A stretch of 49,067 bases of DNA, taken from assembly GCA_019694595.1 (NCBI GenBank), contig JAIBBQ010000025.1:1-49067 (forward strand). Direction: 5' to 3'. This document shows, piece by piece, positions 13,371 through 20,274 of this stretch. The notes beneath the pieces are model-generated. The model saw only the letters and a program-made list of their open reading frames with translations. It was not told the DNA's origin and did no database searches. Each line of letters opens with the position of its first letter. The stretch's first letter is position 1. Source of the DNA: Myxococcaceae bacterium (lineage in GTDB: Bacteria > Myxococcota > Myxococcia > Myxococcales > Myxococcaceae). The position numbers and the translations under genes were made by a program.

Positions 13371-14219
13371 TCACCCGCGCTGCAGCCCCTGCAGCGAGAG
13401 GTCGAGCCGGCTGCCCACCAGGCCGAGCAGGCTGTCGAGCGAGCTGCCGTCGAGGCCCAGCCGCTCGTGGAGCTGCACCTTCACCGCCGCGAGCCACCGC
13501 TGCCGGGCCTGCTCCAGCCAGTGCGCGACGGTGCTGCGCGGCGCGCCGAGGCGCTTGCCCAGCTCGCCGTGCGGCACGCCTTCGAGGTGATGTGCGCGCA
13601 GGAGGTCGCGGTCCTTCTCGCTCATCGCCGCCAGGGTGTCGGTGAGCGCGCGCTCCAGCGCGGCGCGGGCGTTGGCCTTCACCGCCGACAGCTCGGGGTC
13701 GCTGGTCACCAGGTCCCAGAGCGCCTGGGCGCCCACCTCGCCGCCGACCTCGCGGTTCGACGGCGCGCGCTTGAGGTCGGCCAGCTCCCGCTTGGCGACC
13801 AGCGCGAGCCAGCGCTTGAGCGGCGCCCGGCCGGCGAACTCCAGCAACCGGGGGCGCGCGCCCACCAGGAGCTTCTCGCGCAGCCGCTGCGCGAGCTCGT
13901 CGTCGCCCTTGCCGACCTGCCGGACCACCGGCCCGAGCACCTCGGCGTCGAACCGCCGCAGGGCGCCGCGGTCCTGCTCGAGGCAGCCCAGCGCGAGGGC
14001 CACGTCGCCCGCGTGGAAGGACGAAGGGTCTTCCAGCGCGGCGGTGGTGAGCAGCTGTCCGAGGCGCTCGGTCAGTTGCTTGGCGTCGCCGTCGGGCCAG
14101 CCGGCGCGGGCCTCGGCGAGCCAGCCGTCGACGAGCGCGCCGGCGTCGCGATGCGCCTTCAGGGCGGTGCGCACCGCGGGCGCGGTGTGCGGCAACAGCA
14201 GGGCGAGGCGGTCGGCCAC
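13371..14219 (-). CDS. Myxobacterial-type RNA polymerase sigma-70 family factor
   Basis: A 282-residue sigma factor. The C-terminal region 4 is clear: SEKDRDLLRAHHLEGVPH followed by the helix-turn-helix GELGKRLGAPRSTVAHWLEQAR (about residues 193-235), which would read the -35 element. Region 2-like helices (APLKRWLALVAKRELADLKR) lie around residues 130-155. The long N-terminal half and divergent region 2 fit the Myxococcales sigma-70 subfamily often labelled gmx1 rather than a standard ECF sigma of about 180 residues. It is transcribed divergently from a Ser/Thr kinase with an anti-sigma-like zinc finger, 59 bases away. A control relationship between the two is likely but inferred. Confidence 0.8.
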   Translation of the reverse strand: MADRLALLLPHTAPAVRTALKAHRDAGALVDGWLAEARAGWPDGDAKQLTERLGQLLTTAALEDPSSFHAGDVALALGCLEQDRGALRRFDAEVLGPVVRQVGKGDDELAQRLREKLLVGARPRLLEFAGRAPLKRWLALVAKRELADLKRAPSNREVGGEVGAQALWDLVTSDPELSAVKANARAALERALTDTLAAMSEKDRDLLRAHHLEGVPHGELGKRLGAPRSTVAHWLEQARQRWLAAVKVQLHERLGLDGSSLDSLLGLVGSRLDLSLQGLQRG

Positions 14220-14228
14220 GCGCCCAGG

Positions 14229-14259
14229 CTGACACGCGGGCGGGGGCGTGGGCTACCGT
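14229..14259 (+). promoter_or_regulatory. Possible sigma-70-type promoter for the kinase gene
   Basis: CTGACA (14229-14234), 19 bases, then TACCGT (14254-14259), about 20 bases before the kinase ATG. The whole divergent intergenic region is only 59 bases, so both promoters must lie within it or in the coding ends. Weak matches; inferred only. Confidence 0.3.
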
Positions 14260-14278
14260 TTGGAAGCGCAGACGCTCG

Positions 14279-15811
14279 ATGACGTGTCCTTCGGAGAACT
14301 CGCTGCTCGACTACCTGGAAGGCCGGCTGGCCTCGCAGGAAGACGCGCGCCTGGGCGAGCACCTGGAAGGCTGCGAGCGCTGCCGCGAGGTGGCCTCGCT
14401 GGCGTCGCAGATTCACGAGACGATGGTGGGCGACTCGACGCTGTCCACCTCGCCGACGGCGATTCGCCAGGCGTACCAGGCCCGCGCCCAGGCCGCGGCC
14501 GAGCTCATCGGTCAGAGGATCGGCGAGTACGAGGTGGAAGCGCTCATCGGCTGCGGCGGCATGGGCCTGGTGTACCGGGCGGTGCACCCCGTCATCCAGA
14601 AGCCGGTGGCCATCAAGGTGCTGCGGCCGGAGCTGGCCGCCGACCCCACCCACATGCGCCGCATGGTGAGCGAGGCGCGCGCGGTCACTTCCATCGGCCA
14701 CCGCGGCGTGGTGGACATCTTCTCCTTCGGCGAGCTGGCCGACGGCCGCCAGTACCTGGTGATGGAGTTCCTCGTCGGCCGCGCGCTCGACCGCATCGTG
14801 CGCGAGCAGGCGCCGCTGCCGCTGGGGCCCTTGCTGGTGCTGCTCGACGGCATCCTGGAGGCGCTCGGCGCCGCGCACGCCGCGGGCGTGGTGCACCGCG
14901 ACCTCAAGCCGTCGAACCTCTTCGTCGTCGAGCCGCCCCACGGCAGTCCGTACGTGAAGCTGCTCGACTTCGGGCTGGCCCGGCGCGAGCGCACCAACAC
15001 CGGGCACACCCGCATCGGCCTCGACGTCATCGGGACCCCTGCGTACATGGCGCCCGAGCAGGTGAAGGCGCAGCCGGTGACCACCCGCGCCGACCTCTAC
15101 GCGCTGGGCGTGGTGGCCTTCGAGCTCGCCGCCGGCAAGCGCCCCTTCGACGGCCCGACCGTGCAGGCGCTGCTCCAGGCGCACGTGAACGAGCAGCCGC
15201 CGAGGCTCTCGAGCCTGGTGGCGGGCGTGCCGCCGGCGCTCGACGGGCTCATCGCCCGGCTGCTGGAAAAGGACCCCGCGGCCCGGCCCGCGTCGGTGAC
15301 CGAGGTGCAGGAAGAGCTGCGCCGCATCTCGCAGATCGACGAGGTCACCGCGCGGCGGCCCCCGGACGAGCCGGCGCGCCGGACCTGGACCTGGGTGCTG
15401 CTCGGCGTGGGCCTGGTGAGCGCGCTGCTCCTGGGCGCCGCGGTGCAGCGCTTCGCCACCGCCGACGAGCTCCAGGTGACGCCCCCGCGGCGCCCGTCGC
15501 TGGTGCCGGTCGTCGTGCCCGACGAGGTGGTGGTCGACGCGGGTGAAGAGCCGACGCGAGGCGAAGAGGACGCGGGGCTCGAGCCTGCGCGGGTGCCCCA
15601 GCCACTCAAGGTCCAGGTGCGGCGGCACCTGCAGCAGTTGCAGGCGCGGCTCAAGCAGCGCACCCCCGCGGGCGAGCCCCCCAACGCGCTGGTCACCGCC
15701 GTGCTGCGGGAGACCGAAGGCAAGCTCGCGTCGGCGCGCACCGACGCCCAGCTGCGCGCCATCGACGCCTCGCTGTCGGATCTCGAGCGCAAGTACCTGC
15801 CGCGCCGCTGA
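14279..15811 (+). CDS. Membrane Ser/Thr protein kinase with N-terminal anti-sigma-like zinc finger
   Basis: A 510-residue Hanks-type kinase. Residues 1-45 (CPSENSLLDYLEG then HLEGCERC) form an HxxxCxxC zinc-binding motif like zf-HC2 anti-sigma domains. The kinase domain spans about residues 82-345, with glycine loop IGCGGMGLVYRA, VAIKVL lysine, HRDLKPSN catalytic loop, LLDFGLA metal-binding Asp, and MAPEQ. All catalytic residues are present, so it should be active. A single membrane helix (about 365-385, WVLLGVGLVSALLLGAA) leads to a roughly 120-residue extracytoplasmic helical domain. A divergent sigma factor gene lies 59 bases away. The architecture suggests an outside signal, kinase, zinc finger, and control of that sigma factor. 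This is inference. Confidence 0.88.
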   Translation: MTCPSENSLLDYLEGRLASQEDARLGEHLEGCERCREVASLASQIHETMVGDSTLSTSPTAIRQAYQARAQAAAELIGQRIGEYEVEALIGCGGMGLVYRAVHPVIQKPVAIKVLRPELAADPTHMRRMVSEARAVTSIGHRGVVDIFSFGELADGRQYLVMEFLVGRALDRIVREQAPLPLGPLLVLLDGILEALGAAHAAGVVHRDLKPSNLFVVEPPHGSPYVKLLDFGLARRERTNTGHTRIGLDVIGTPAYMAPEQVKAQPVTTRADLYALGVVAFELAAGKRPFDGPTVQALLQAHVNEQPPRLSSLVAGVPPALDGLIARLLEKDPAARPASVTEVQEELRRISQIDEVTARRPPDEPARRTWTWVLLGVGLVSALLLGAAVQRFATADELQVTPPRRPSLVPVVVPDEVVVDAGEEPTRGEEDAGLEPARVPQPLKVQVRRHLQQLQARLKQRTPAGEPPNALVTAVLRETEGKLASARTDAQLRAIDASLSDLERKYLPRR

Positions 15812-15861: not shown

Positions 15862-16686
15862 GTGCTCGCCTTCGCGCTCGGCGTCCAGCTGCTCGCCCTG
15901 GGGGCGACCCGCCCGGTCGACGTGGTCGTCTCGCGCGCGGTCGACGTGAGCCCCCAGGAGCAGACCGCCATCGCCGAGCGGCTGGTGCTCGCGCTGCGCG
16001 CCCAGGGAATGACCGCGGCGATGCCGGGCGACGTGGCGACCCGGCTCAAGGCGCTCGGTGCGTCGCGGCCCGAGTCGTGTGCCGCGGAGCGCAGCTGCGT
16101 CGCCCGCCTGGGCGCGCTCCTGCAGTCGTACTTCGTGGTCTCTGTCGACCTCGGCCGGGTGGCGGGCCAGCTCGCGGTGGCGGTGGAGGCCATCTCTCCC
16201 GCCGATGCGAAGGTGGTGGGCCACCGCGCGGGCACCGCCGGCACCAGCGACGCCGTGGCCCCGCTCCTCGAGAGCTTCGCCGCGCAGCTGCGCCCCAAGG
16301 TGCCCGACGTGCCCGAGCCCGAGGTCTCGCCCACGCCAAAGCTCGTGCCGGTGGCGGCGCCCGAGACTCCGGCCGTTCCTGCGCAGGCGGTGGAGGTGGC
16401 CGCCGCCCCGAGCCACCTGCCGGCCAAGGTGACCCTGGGCATCGCCGGCGCGCTCGCGGCCGGCAGCCTGGCGAGCCTGACCGCGGGGCTGGTCTTCAAG
16501 AGCCGCTTCGACGCCTCGCGCTCCCAGGTGGGCGGGCTGGAGGCCTCCCGCCTGCCGCAGGCCGATGCCCAGGCCCTCGCTGGCTCGGCGAACGCGGCCT
16601 TCAGCGTCGCGCTGGTGGGGGCGCTGCTGTCGGCGGCCACGCTCGGCGTGAGCGGGTTCCTCTGGCTCGGTCCCGGCGAAAGCTGA
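15862..16686 (+). CDS. Hypothetical exported/membrane protein
   Basis: A 274-residue protein with a GTG start and an N-terminal hydrophobic segment (FALGVQLLALGAT, a probable signal). Residues about 15-145 alternate strands and helices (AERLVLALRAQGM, CVARLGALLQSYFVVSVDL) in a way I do not recognise. A Pro/Val/Ala-rich linker follows (about 148-180), then two predicted membrane helices (LGIAGALAAGSLASLTAGL and FSVALVGALLSAATLG). It starts 50 bases after the kinase stop in the same direction and may be co-transcribed; TTGACT at 15828 could give it its own promoter. Function unknown; the context hints at a kinase partner. Confidence 0.65.
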   Translation: MLAFALGVQLLALGATRPVDVVVSRAVDVSPQEQTAIAERLVLALRAQGMTAAMPGDVATRLKALGASRPESCAAERSCVARLGALLQSYFVVSVDLGRVAGQLAVAVEAISPADAKVVGHRAGTAGTSDAVAPLLESFAAQLRPKVPDVPEPEVSPTPKLVPVAAPETPAVPAQAVEVAAAPSHLPAKVTLGIAGALAAGSLASLTAGLVFKSRFDASRSQVGGLEASRLPQADAQALAGSANAAFSVALVGALLSAATLGVSGFLWLGPGES

Positions 16687-16758
16687 GCCGGGCCGGGCGC
16701 TTCAACGCCCTTTACAGCGCCCCACGTTGGAAGCCGCGCGGGGGCCGTCGTCTTGCCT

Positions 16759-16777
16759 GGCGAGAGCGCAACTCGCC
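16759..16777 (+). other. Leader stem-loop next to ribosome site of the C39-like peptidase
   Basis: GGCGAG (16759-16764) pairs with CTCGCC (16772-16777) with a 7-base loop. It ends 3 bases before the AGGAG ribosome site of the peptidase gene, so it could influence initiation or mRNA stability. A second short hairpin, GGGCG/CGCCC (16695-16710) followed by TTT, lies just after the preceding gene and may be a weak terminator. Confidence 0.35.
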
Positions 16778-16791
16778 GCCAGGAGCCCGCC

Positions 16792-17973
16792 ATGTCGTCT
16801 CCCACCATCCGTCGCAAGAGCCCCATCGCCTTCGAGCCGCCCATCGCGCCCAGCCTGGCGCGCACCGAGCGCACGGCCGCGCTCCAGAAGGCCGCCGACG
16901 CCTTCGTCGCCACCAGCGCGAAGAAGGCGGTGGTGGCGAGCCCGTACACGCTGAGCGCCAAGGAACTCTCTCGCGGCGACAGCGGCGATGCGGTGCGGCT
17001 GCTGCAAGACGACCTGGTGGCGCTCGGGTACATGACCCAGGCGGGCATGAACACCGGCCCCGGCATCTTCGGGCCGCGCACCCAGGCGGGCGTGAAGGAC
17101 TTCCAGCGCGAGCACGGCCTGCCGCAGACCGGCATCACCGACCACGCGACCCGCGCGGCGATGCGCAAGGCGCTCGACGAGCTGGCCCAGTTCGACGCCC
17201 ACACCATCAAGCGCGGCATGAAGAACGCGTCGGTGCGCGCCTGGCAGGCCAAGCTGGTCGAGGCCGGGTACCTCTCGCAGGCCGCGGTCGACGCGCACCC
17301 CGGTGTGTTCGGCGGCAAGACCGAGGCGGCGACCAAGCAGTTCCAGGAAGACCACGGGCTCCACGTGAGCGGCGCGTGCGGGAGCGCCACCCGGGCCAAG
17401 ATGAAGAAGGTGCTGGCGGGCGAGGTGGCCAATGCCCCGGGGAAGGACGGCCAGGTCCGGCCGGTCCCGTACATCAACCAGCTCACCAGCGACGGTGGCG
17501 CCGACGACTGGAACGCGCAGTCGAACTGTGGGCCGACGTCGGTGGCGATGATCGCCAAGGCCTTCGGCAAGTTCGCCGGCTGGCGCGACGGCGACACGGT
17601 GGAAGAGGTGCGGCGGCTCGGCGGCGTGGGTGCCGACGGGGCAGGGGCCGACACCGTGGCGGCGATGGGGCGAGCCGCCGGCCTCACGTCCTACGGTCCG
17701 GTGTGGGGTGCCCAGCTCGACTGGATCCGCAGCCAGCTCGCGCAGGGCCACCTGGTGGCCGCCAACGGCAACCGCGGCGTCACGCTGGAGAACGCGAGCT
17801 TCAACGACGGTGTCACCGGCGGGCACTGGATCGTCGTCACCGGCATCGACAAGAACGGCAACTTCCTGGTGAACGACCCGTCGACCGACTGCCATTCACT
17901 CACCCCGGAGCAGCTCCAGCGGTACTTCAACTCGCACGAGTACGGCGGGGCGGCGGTGGCCTTCTCCAGCTGA
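16792..17973 (+). CDS. C39-like peptidase with two peptidoglycan-binding domains
   Basis: A 393-residue protein. The ATG at 16792 has AGGAG 6 bases upstream; an earlier in-frame start (16753) is not preceded by a ribosome site. Two PG_binding_1-type repeats (about residues 60-127 and 138-208, with core LLQDDLVALGYM, GVKDFQREHGLPQTG and AATKQFQEDHGL) precede a papain-like domain. The catalytic Cys is in SNCGPTSVAMI (near residue 245), the His in GGHWIVVTGID (near 345), and the Asp in LVNDPS. The fold matches C39_2-type peptidases. It probably cuts peptide bonds in or near the cell wall. No signal peptide is visible, so export is unexplained or the protein acts after lysis or through a dedicated secretion system. 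Confidence 0.82.
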   Translation: MSSPTIRRKSPIAFEPPIAPSLARTERTAALQKAADAFVATSAKKAVVASPYTLSAKELSRGDSGDAVRLLQDDLVALGYMTQAGMNTGPGIFGPRTQAGVKDFQREHGLPQTGITDHATRAAMRKALDELAQFDAHTIKRGMKNASVRAWQAKLVEAGYLSQAAVDAHPGVFGGKTEAATKQFQEDHGLHVSGACGSATRAKMKKVLAGEVANAPGKDGQVRPVPYINQLTSDGGADDWNAQSNCGPTSVAMIAKAFGKFAGWRDGDTVEEVRRLGGVGADGAGADTVAAMGRAAGLTSYGPVWGAQLDWIRSQLAQGHLVAANGNRGVTLENASFNDGVTGGHWIVVTGIDKNGNFLVNDPSTDCHSLTPEQLQRYFNSHEYGGAAVAFSS

Positions 17974-18023
17974 AGGTCGTTCGCCCGCGCGCGTCGTACG
18001 CCGGCAGGTGCTTCAATGTCGGC

Positions 18024-19076
18024 ATGAGGTGGTTCGCGGCGCTGCCGCTCGTGCTCACGGGGTGCCAGTGCGTCGCCACCGACGGCCTCACCTTCGGTTG
18101 CGAGGCCGACGGCGGGTGTCCGGCGGGCCGCCGGTGCGATGCGCCGAGCCAGCTCTGTCTGCCGGCGGATGCGGGGCAGGCGGCCGACGGCGGCCCCGAG
18201 GTGGACGCCGGAGTCGATGCTGGCGCCGACGCGGGGGGCGTCGACGCCGGGAAGGACGCGGGAGTGGATGCGGGCGCCGATGCGGGACTCGATGCGGGGC
18301 CGATGCCGAGCGGGGAGACCTGCGACGAGCCGTTTCCGCTCGACCTCGCGCACGGCGAGGCGGTGGTGACGGGAACGCTCGTCGGTGCGAAGGACGACGT
18401 GCTCGCGGCGTGCGCTCCGAGCCAGGCGCCGGACCTCGTGTACGCCTTCGACGGAGGTGGAGTGTTCACGGCCTCCGTCGACCGGCTGCCCGACAGCGGC
18501 ATTCACCCGCAGCTCATGGTGCGCAGCACCTGCGCCGGCACCAGCGCCGAGCTCTGCGTGCAGTGTTCCTGTGACGTGGGTGGCCGGGTGTTGCTCGCCC
18601 CGGGCCGCTGGTTCGTGGTCGTCGACAGCCGCTCCGGGCTCACCGGGCCGTACGCGCTCCACGCTGCCCTGGTGCCTGCGGTCAGCGGAGAGTCGTGCGA
18701 CTTCGCCGCCAGCCTCGCGCTCCTCGACGGCGGCTTCTCGGGCACCATCAGCCTCGCGGGCACCATCGACGAGCGCCAGCGGCCGCCGAGCTGCTCTCCC
18801 GGCGATGCCGGTCACGACCTGGTGGTGAAGTTCGTCACGCCGCGCGCGGGGAACCTCGGCGTCACCGCCAGCGCGCCGTTCACCCACGCGCTGGCGCTCA
18901 CCCGCGGAACGGCCTGCGCCACCGCGACCGAGGTCCTCGCCGCGTGCGACGCCGCCGACGCCGGGCCCGCGGCGGTGGCGGTCACTGCCGCTCCCGCGGG
19001 CACCTACTGGCTGTGGCTGTCGAGTCCCGAGCCCGCCCAGCAGGGCGCGCTGTCCGTCACCATCACCCTCGACTAG
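18024..19076 (+). CDS. DAG-linker lipoprotein, first of a tandem pair
   Basis: A 350-residue lipoprotein (MRWFAALPLVLTGC, lipobox LTGC). A Cys-rich segment follows the lipid anchor (CQCVATDG, GCEADGGCPAGRRC, SQLCLP). Residues about 57-93 are Asp-Ala-Gly units. The C-terminal 250 residues hold two similar beta-rich modules, beginning SGETCDEPFPLDLAHG and SGESCDFAASLALLDGG, each containing a PDLVYAF- or HDLVVKF-like strand and an LxVT segment; they resemble bacterial pre-peptidase C-terminal folds. The next gene (19126) is a clear paralogue with the same order of parts. Function unknown; display on the cell surface is inferred. Confidence 0.75.
   Translation: MRWFAALPLVLTGCQCVATDGLTFGCEADGGCPAGRRCDAPSQLCLPADAGQAADGGPEVDAGVDAGADAGGVDAGKDAGVDAGADAGLDAGPMPSGETCDEPFPLDLAHGEAVVTGTLVGAKDDVLAACAPSQAPDLVYAFDGGGVFTASVDRLPDSGIHPQLMVRSTCAGTSAELCVQCSCDVGGRVLLAPGRWFVVVDSRSGLTGPYALHAALVPAVSGESCDFAASLALLDGGFSGTISLAGTIDERQRPPSCSPGDAGHDLVVKFVTPRAGNLGVTASAPFTHALALTRGTACATATEVLAACDAADAGPAAVAVTAAPAGTYWLWLSSPEPAQQGALSVTITLD
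18204..18303 (+). repeat. Asp-Ala-Gly coding repeat
   Basis: About ten imperfect GAY-GCS-GGN units, often in 12-base pairs encoding DAGVDAGADAG. The units vary at third bases. They encode the extended linker of the first tandem lipoprotein. Confidence 0.65.
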
Positions 19077-19125
19077 CCCCCGCGAGCCCCGCGCACCTGG
19101 CCCCCGCTTGAGCCACAATGCCTCC

Positions 19126-20274
19126 ATGAAGTGGCTCGCCCTGGCCGCCCTGGCCACCACCGCCGGTTGCACCTGCGTCCGCACCGACGGGCTGGTCTTC
19201 GAGTGCGGGCCCGATGGCAGCTGCCCCACGGGCCTCACCTGCGACGAGGGACTGCAGCTCTGCCTGGCGGGCGACGGCGGCGGTTTCCTCGATGCCGGCG
19301 CAGACGCAGGCAGCGACGCCGGGCGCGATGGCGGCGTCGATGCGGGCGCCGATGCCGGGCGCGACGGTGGCCTCGATGGCGGCAGTGACGGCGGGGCCGA
19401 CGCGGGGCGCGACGGCGGACTCGATGGGGGGAGCGATGGGGGCCGCGACGGCGGGCTCGACGCGGGTGTCGACGCCGGGCCTTCGGGCGAGACGTGCAGC
19501 GACCCGTTCCCGCTCGACCTCTCGACCGGAAACGCCCTGGTCACCGGGACGCTGACCGGCACGCGCGACGACGTGGCCACCACCTGCATGGGCTTCGGGT
19601 CCGTCTCTCCGGGGCCCGACCTCGTCTACGCCTTCGACGGCGGCGGGGTGCTCGACGTCGACCTGCACCGGACCTCGGGCTCCTCGATGTGGCCCGAGCT
19701 CATGGTGCGCACCTCCTGCAGCGCGCCCACGTCCACCTTCTGTGGGCTGAGCAAGAGCGACACGCCCGTGGTGGCGCACCTGCTCCTGCCGCAGGGGCGC
19801 TGGTACCTGGTGGTCGACTGCGAGACGCAGAAGGGCCCGTACGAGATGGCGGTGAGCCTCAAGGCGCCGGTGGCTGGCGAGTGGTGCGAGAACCCGCTGC
19901 CGCTCACGCTGAGTGGCGCGCCGCTCACCGCGAGCACCATGGTGAGCCTGGCGGGCACCGAGGCCACCCGGCAGCGCCCTCCCAGCTGCTCCGACGCCGG
20001 GGTGGGCCACGACGTGGTGCTCAAGGTCACCACGCCCACCACGGGCAACCTCTCGGTGGTGGGCGTCGCCAACTTCGGCTTCGCGCTGGCGGTGACCGAG
20101 GGGCCCTCGTGCCCCAGCGCCAGCGAGCCCGCGGGGGCTTGCGGGGCCGACGGCGACGGCGGCCAGCTCTCGCTCAACGTGCCGGGAGCGCTCGCCGGCA
20201 CCTACTGGGTCTGGGTCTCGTCCACCTCGGCCGCCGGCCAGGGCACGGTCGACCTCACCGTGACCCTGCAGTAG
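19126..20274 (+). CDS. DAG-linker lipoprotein, second of a tandem pair
   Basis: A 382-residue paralogue of the preceding gene. It has a lipoprotein signal (MKWLALAALATTAGC), a matching Cys-rich start (CTCVRTDGLVFEC, GSCPTGLTC), a longer linker mixing DAG and DGG units (about residues 56-118), and the same two C-terminal modules (SGETCSDPFPLDLSTG, then GEWCENPLPLTLSG). PGPDLVYAFDGGGV is nearly identical to the first copy. The ATG at 19126 is chosen over the one at 19108 because the signal starts there. The pair probably arose by local duplication, with the linkers diverging fastest. Function unknown. Confidence 0.75.
   Translation: MKWLALAALATTAGCTCVRTDGLVFECGPDGSCPTGLTCDEGLQLCLAGDGGGFLDAGADAGSDAGRDGGVDAGADAGRDGGLDGGSDGGADAGRDGGLDGGSDGGRDGGLDAGVDAGPSGETCSDPFPLDLSTGNALVTGTLTGTRDDVATTCMGFGSVSPGPDLVYAFDGGGVLDVDLHRTSGSSMWPELMVRTSCSAPTSTFCGLSKSDTPVVAHLLLPQGRWYLVVDCETQKGPYEMAVSLKAPVAGEWCENPLPLTLSGAPLTASTMVSLAGTEATRQRPPSCSDAGVGHDVVLKVTTPTTGNLSVVGVANFGFALAVTEGPSCPSASEPAGACGADGDGGQLSLNVPGALAGTYWVWVSSTSAAGQGTVDLTVTLQ
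19291..19479 (+). repeat. Asp-Ala-Gly / Asp-Gly-Gly coding repeat
   Basis: Roughly twenty 9-base units alternate between GAT/GAC-GCN-GGN and GAC-GGN-GGN. The block is about twice as long as the matching one in the upstream paralogue, consistent with slippage or unequal crossing-over. Confidence 0.65.

Follow-up and report, generated by a model that had tools for sequence, protein, structure and literature searches.

A gmx1 sigma factor gene paired with a membrane Ser/Thr kinase that carries an anti-sigma-type zinc domain, a recurrent arrangement in myxobacteria

Background

Anti-sigma domains and kinases are each an established way of controlling ECF sigma factors. Class I anti-sigma domains bind sigma region 4 with three helices and region 2 with a fourth, and the groups that carry them contain both zinc and non-zinc members (PMC7406223). 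Six ECF groups are associated with Ser/Thr kinases (STKs), among them ECF43 (PMC8999054), whose member EcfP is devoid of the acidic residues of region 2.2 and is inactive until phosphorylated (PMC8999054, PMC13147305). According to a 2022 review, the kinase-linked ECF sigmas outside ECF43 await characterisation and may differ from EcfP (PMC8999054). The present analysis concerns a stretch of 49,067 nucleotides from a Myxococcaceae bacterium (assembly GCA_019694595.1, contig JAIBBQ010000025.1; hereafter the window), in which a sigma factor of the Sig-70_gmx1 family (gmx1) lies beside a membrane kinase with an N-terminal zinc finger.

The sigma factor

The sigma gene and the gap that separates it from the kinase gene comprise the following features.

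13371-14219 including the stop (13374-14219 coding), minus strand: Sig-70_gmx1 (TIGR03001) sigma-70 factor, 282 aa, GTG start (profile score, AlphaFold)
13767-14012, minus strand: sigma region 2, spanning approximately residues 70-151 (helices of the AlphaFold model; aligned with sigmaE, SigW and SigK)
13896-13901, minus strand: acidic pair D107-E108 of region 2.2 (homologue alignment)
13458-13697, minus strand: sigma region 4, about residues 175-254 (domain and structure match)
13380-13448, minus strand: C-terminal tail helix, residues 258-280 (AlphaFold; pLDDT about 74 dropping to 35)
14220-14278, no strand: intergenic region of 59 bp between the divergent start codons (sequence)

The protein scores 160.7 bits against TIGR03001, above the curated cut-off of 154.6, and it has the ECF architecture of regions 2 and 4 joined by a linker with no region 3; ECF structures align with it over residues 69-260. 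Specifically, the top VIA-align match of its model is region 4 of SigL bound to RslA (3HUG; Z 9.7, 2.2 A over 77 residues). The AlphaFold model (mean pLDDT 80) consists of N-terminal helices (1-65), region 2, region 4 and the tail helix, with extra helices at both ends relative to the ECF core. Structure matches scarcely cover the N-terminal extension (1-65), so no new fold is claimed for it.

An acidic residue, Asp or Glu, occupies position 108 in each of the 52 homologues (DDELAQ in the window sequence), and the sigma does not have the region 2.2 without acidic motif and with a phospho-Thr that marks ECF43. Because these acidic residues are kept, the sigma should bind RNA polymerase unphosphorylated and would need restraint; an inactive default state is not expected for it, in keeping with sequestration. 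The tail carries Ser or Thr at high frequency among homologues (Ser263 98%, Ser270 81%, Ser275 at least 92%), and from this conservation the three serines may be phosphorylation targets or perhaps structural instead. They are a lead at most, since sigmas with no zinc-finger kinase nearby retain them: in three such loci (L062, L075, L082) Ser263 is kept, as is Ser275 except for a Thr in L082, which is why the serines may be structural.

The kinase and its zinc-finger domain

On the opposite strand, the kinase gene and the gene that follows it were delimited as below.

14279-15811 including the stop (14279-15808 coding), plus strand: anti-sigma-domain Hanks Ser/Thr kinase, 510 aa, ATG start (domain profiles, AlphaFold)
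14279-14425, plus strand: N-terminal zf-HC2 / class I anti-sigma three-helix domain, residues 1-49 (Pfam, conservation, AlphaFold)
14453-14506, plus strand: predicted fourth helix, residues 59-76 (AlphaFold, linker lengths)
14528-15295, plus strand: Hanks-type kinase domain, residues 84-339, catalytic K113, D208 and D230 (Pkinase, fold)
15383-15445, plus strand: transmembrane segment, residues 369-389 (sequence; model helix 365-394)
15446-15808, plus strand: outside region, a disordered acidic and Pro-rich stalk followed by three helices, residues 442-506 (AlphaFold)
15862-16686, plus strand: exported protein, hydrophobic segments at its C-terminal end, candidate third part (relative in locus L066)

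The initial annotation had described a sigma factor 59 bases from a divergent kinase with an HxxxCxxC motif in its first 45 residues, a membrane helix and an outside domain, and each element is borne out by the TIGR03001 score, the positions of the start codons and the features above. Pfam identifies Pkinase with an E-value of 9.9e-45 and zf-HC2 with 24.8 bits (gathering cut-off 22.2). The kinase domain is intact (VAIK, HRD, DFG) and its fold matches PknA and PknB, as for a Hanks Ser/Thr kinase. The finger motif, HLEGCERC, occupies residues 28-35, and its zinc ligands are H28, C32 and C35, with C3 as the fourth. In the AlphaFold model (mean pLDDT 75.6), helices at 6-13, 19-31 and 33-49 are followed by a loop and a helix at 59-76 before the kinase, and the C-terminus ends in a helical bundle (442-506).

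The initial annotation had further likened the finger to anti-sigma factors and had made its proposal depend on conservation among orthologues. Across sets of 34 and 40 diverse homologues, H28, C32 and C35 never vary, which puts them level with the catalytic K113, D208 and D230, and the first ligand position is Cys or His in 117 of 117 paired kinases; with its ligands invariant among homologues, the HxxxCxxC motif is not a chance occurrence. A profile of 40 fingers compared with all PDB sequences retrieved four anti-sigma factors first, RslA (1.1e-6), ChrR (1.4e-5), DdvA (7e-4) and RsiW (0.006), each of which has a domain of this type. Furthermore, the domain has the Hx3Cx2C pattern across helices 2 and 3 and the upstream Cys/His ligand of zinc class I anti-sigma factors, and the modelled layout of three helices plus a fourth is the one that defines class I. 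The assignment of the N-terminal finger as an anti-sigma-type domain is thus supported. The next PDB match, with an E-value of 0.02, is a CHAT-domain protein (8ROT/8RW5) with a similar anti-sigma-like finger at residues 7-39, hinting from sequence similarity that anti-sigma domains may be fused to other enzymes besides kinases.

The fourth helix is modelled in the window kinase at a pLDDT of about 65-85, and the 46-residue linker between finger and kinase domain reaches the upper end of the family range (median 31). Most relatives have linkers that are too short or Pro-rich, and even that of the closest one (L044) is too short for a fourth helix. As such, full two-site sequestration cannot be general. 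In three other kinases beside gmx1 sigmas (L075, L137, L141), all zinc ligands are lost at the N-terminus, and anti-sigma families are among the best matches in all three at sub-threshold scores, with zf-HC2 as the sole, weak Pfam match in L075 and L141. These variants parallel the published anti-sigma groups that mix zinc and non-zinc members (PMC7406223).

The exported protein downstream of the kinase had been put forward as a possible third part of the system. A relative of it lies between kinase and sigma in locus L066 (E 1.2e-5), and none was detectable in the other sigma loci examined; the protein is not a general component of these loci, and any role as a third part may be confined to this sub-lineage. 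Just 3' of its gene, the window encodes a protein that combines two peptidoglycan-binding domains with a C39-like peptidase domain (16753-17973). Next come two lipoprotein-like genes (17985-19076 and 19108-20274) that resemble each other, contain Asp/Gly/Ala-rich repeats, have no Pfam match and look like a tandem duplication.

Pairing of the two genes across genomes

The initial annotation had treated the pair as a local curiosity and had staked its proposal on the two genes being neighbours in related genomes. The layout is family-wide rather than special to the window, with up to about a dozen copies per genome. This genome alone (G000; draft, 7.28 Mb, 394 contigs) has 12 gmx1 sigma genes and about 130 kinase matches; 13 of the kinases carry the finger, and 11 of the 12 sigma genes have a finger-kinase neighbour on the same contig. 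The twelfth sits at the end of a contig (C217), and before it comes the end of a coding frame with a transmembrane segment and an acidic, Pro-rich stretch that resembles the kinase C-terminus; an attempt to join C217 to C193, where a kinase is cut at the contig end, gave no exact overlap. In four finished relatives (G007, G011, G022, G028), the sigma loci beside a finger kinase number 10/10, 2/2, 5/5 and 7/7, that is, 24/24. Conversely, among the matches listed, 24 of 26 finger kinases in these genomes lie beside a gmx1 sigma, with one of the searches run at a strict threshold at which a weak finger kinase may be missed. By simple arithmetic, the 26 listed kinases with 4 kb on either side cover about 0.5% of 44 Mb, so that chance alone would give about 0.1 pairings.

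A wider sample of 143 unique sigma genes, whose loci were picked by sigma similarity and not by kinase, yielded the same picture, with a kinase within 3.5 kb of the sigma gene counted as paired. A finger kinase is present at 117, a kinase with an anti-sigma-like N-terminus without zinc ligands at 3, a kinase with no anti-sigma-type domain at one (L132) and a broken kinase frame only at another (L128), while 4, all away from contig ends, have no kinase within this distance. Leaving out the 17 that are cut by contig or locus ends, an anti-sigma-domain kinase is thus next door at 120 of 126 evaluable loci. The 117 pairs occur as kinase-then-sigma (46), sigma-then-kinase (32), divergent (30) and convergent (9). 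Of the 146 genomes sampled from the phylum, 75 contain TIGR03001 itself; at that threshold, none of 14 control genomes does. A scan of named genomes with sigma alignment A3 recovered 13 loci, and the named relatives are Myxococcaceae. Closest to the window pair are that of L044, a Myxococcaceae MAG in which the genes are also divergent and the kinase is 46% identical over the aligned region, and the tandem pair of L066.

Several observations stand beside this pattern. Among the matches listed, three finger kinases have no gmx1 neighbour (G000:C52:41233-42327, which is L043; G007:4176303; G028:11309992); at about 1,050-1,260 aa, they possibly form one orthologous class acting on a remote sigma. 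A frame of 451 aa (G028:C1:5489626-5490687) has a full gmx1 model match plus a second match to the C-terminal 100 positions, and is apparently a sigma with duplicated region 4 and tail. Finally, a record labelled Comamonas sp. KCTC 72670 (L095, BNCN01000003.1) holds a typical Myxococcus sigma/kinase pair and is probably mislabelled or contaminated.

Co-divergence of finger, kinase domain and sigma

Across the 117 pairs, evolutionary distances correlate at 0.68 between finger and sigma, 0.64 between kinase domain and sigma, and 0.47 between finger and kinase. The mirror-tree p-value is 0.001, a test of co-inheritance rather than of contact. It is weakened by control windows of the kinase, which in the N-lobe reach up to 0.70 with the sigma, as high as the finger, so the overall finger-sigma correlation is not decisive alone. 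The regions were compared after removal of near-duplicates, leaving 90 non-redundant pairs. In this set, the finger follows sigma region 4 (r 0.41) more closely than region 2 (r 0.32), and the kinase domain shows the reverse (region 2 r 0.38, region 4 r 0.30), giving a difference of differences of 0.17 (95% interval 0.02-0.33). This co-divergence lends modest support to a contact between the finger and sigma region 4.

A proposed mechanism and its alternatives

With two proteins of these domains, paired family-wide and with zinc ligands and catalytic residues conserved, the reading we favour, with moderate confidence, is that the kinase tethers the sigma through its fused anti-sigma domain and that kinase activity releases or activates the sigma. 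The N-terminal domain would be a class I anti-sigma domain of the zinc type whose bundle of three helices attaches to region 4 of the gmx1 sigma encoded next door; that the finger binds there is what we infer from the known behaviour of its family. The docked sigma would be held at the membrane and kept from RNA polymerase. A signal reaching the outside domain, possibly with the exported neighbour, would alter kinase activity, and phosphorylation of the sigma, the anti-sigma domain or both would free or activate the sigma. The kinase would thereby be the switch, although both its target and the direction of its effect are only what we infer. One protein thus probably senses a signal and directly controls its sigma factor, and the pair would constitute a self-contained channel from envelope to transcription. 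Whether this extends to a general class of anti-sigma kinases, in which one membrane protein sequesters a sigma and then releases or activates it by its own kinase, through several and up to about a dozen parallel channels per myxobacterial genome, is in our judgement evenly balanced.

The strongest alternative holds that the zinc domain docks the sigma as a substrate rather than inhibiting it, and that direct phosphorylation switches the sigma on, as in EcfP/PknT and EcfK/PknS. This scheme would predict the gene pairing just as well, direct phosphorylation is proven for ECF43 sigma-STK pairs (PMC8999054, PMC13147305), the conserved tail serines offer potential targets, and the kinase domain co-diverges best with sigma region 2. 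However, gmx1 sigmas retain the acidic residues whose absence renders EcfP inactive unless it is phosphorylated, the literature searched on ECF43 kinases mentions no anti-sigma domain on them, and the tail serines persist in the loci without a zinc-finger kinase. We regard docking without inhibition as unlikely.

Fingers of the RsrA and ChrR type respond to oxidants, and the zinc domain could likewise sense redox state or metals in the cytoplasm, or mediate dimerisation, and tune the kinase in this way without touching the sigma; the zinc-finger kinases that have no gmx1 neighbour would suit such a role. Yet the finger is coupled near-perfectly to gmx1 neighbours, about 100 other kinases per genome do without it, and zinc-less, anti-sigma-like variants persist beside sigmas, which makes this reading improbable. 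That a single fusion arose beside this sigma and then multiplied by duplication, without any functional coupling today, is very improbable: the family is paralogous and co-duplication alone can correlate trees, but orientation and order have been reshuffled many times and the genes are still together, which argues for selection on the pair.

Comparison with known systems

A systematic fusion of anti-sigma domain and kinase was not described in the literature searched, nor did that literature include a paper treating zf-HC2 and Pkinase together or, among the papers searched, one describing the regulation of gmx1 sigmas; the 2021 ECF classification lay outside the search, so no priority is claimed for the fusion. 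Tethering followed by kinase-driven release would combine features of two described systems. Like the zinc class I anti-sigma factors (ChrR, RslA, RsrA, RsiW, DdvA), the window kinase has an N-terminal three-helix domain with the C/H...Hx3Cx2C pattern and is encoded beside its sigma, and, like many of them, it is membrane-anchored. A fourth helix is predicted in the window protein but is not conserved in most of the family. Unlike these anti-sigma factors, the window protein continues into an active-looking Hanks kinase.

As in the ECF43 pairs (EcfP/PknT, EcfK/PknS), a sigma gene is paired with a Hanks kinase. ECF43 sigmas, however, typically have no acidic motif in region 2.2 and are switched on by phosphorylation, whereas gmx1 sigmas keep the motif, are extended by helices at the N-terminus, end in a tail that contains serines, and are accompanied by kinases with an anti-sigma domain. 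In the other STK-associated ECF groups, too, a sigma and a neighbouring STK occur with no separate anti-sigma factor. For these kinase-linked sigmas outside ECF43, the gmx1 family suggests a concrete answer, namely sequestration and phosphorylation in one protein. Myxococcus, which is rich in gmx1 sigmas, is a place where this model is testable, and the family furthermore offers a route to working out which signal feeds each of the paralogous channels, about a dozen per genome.
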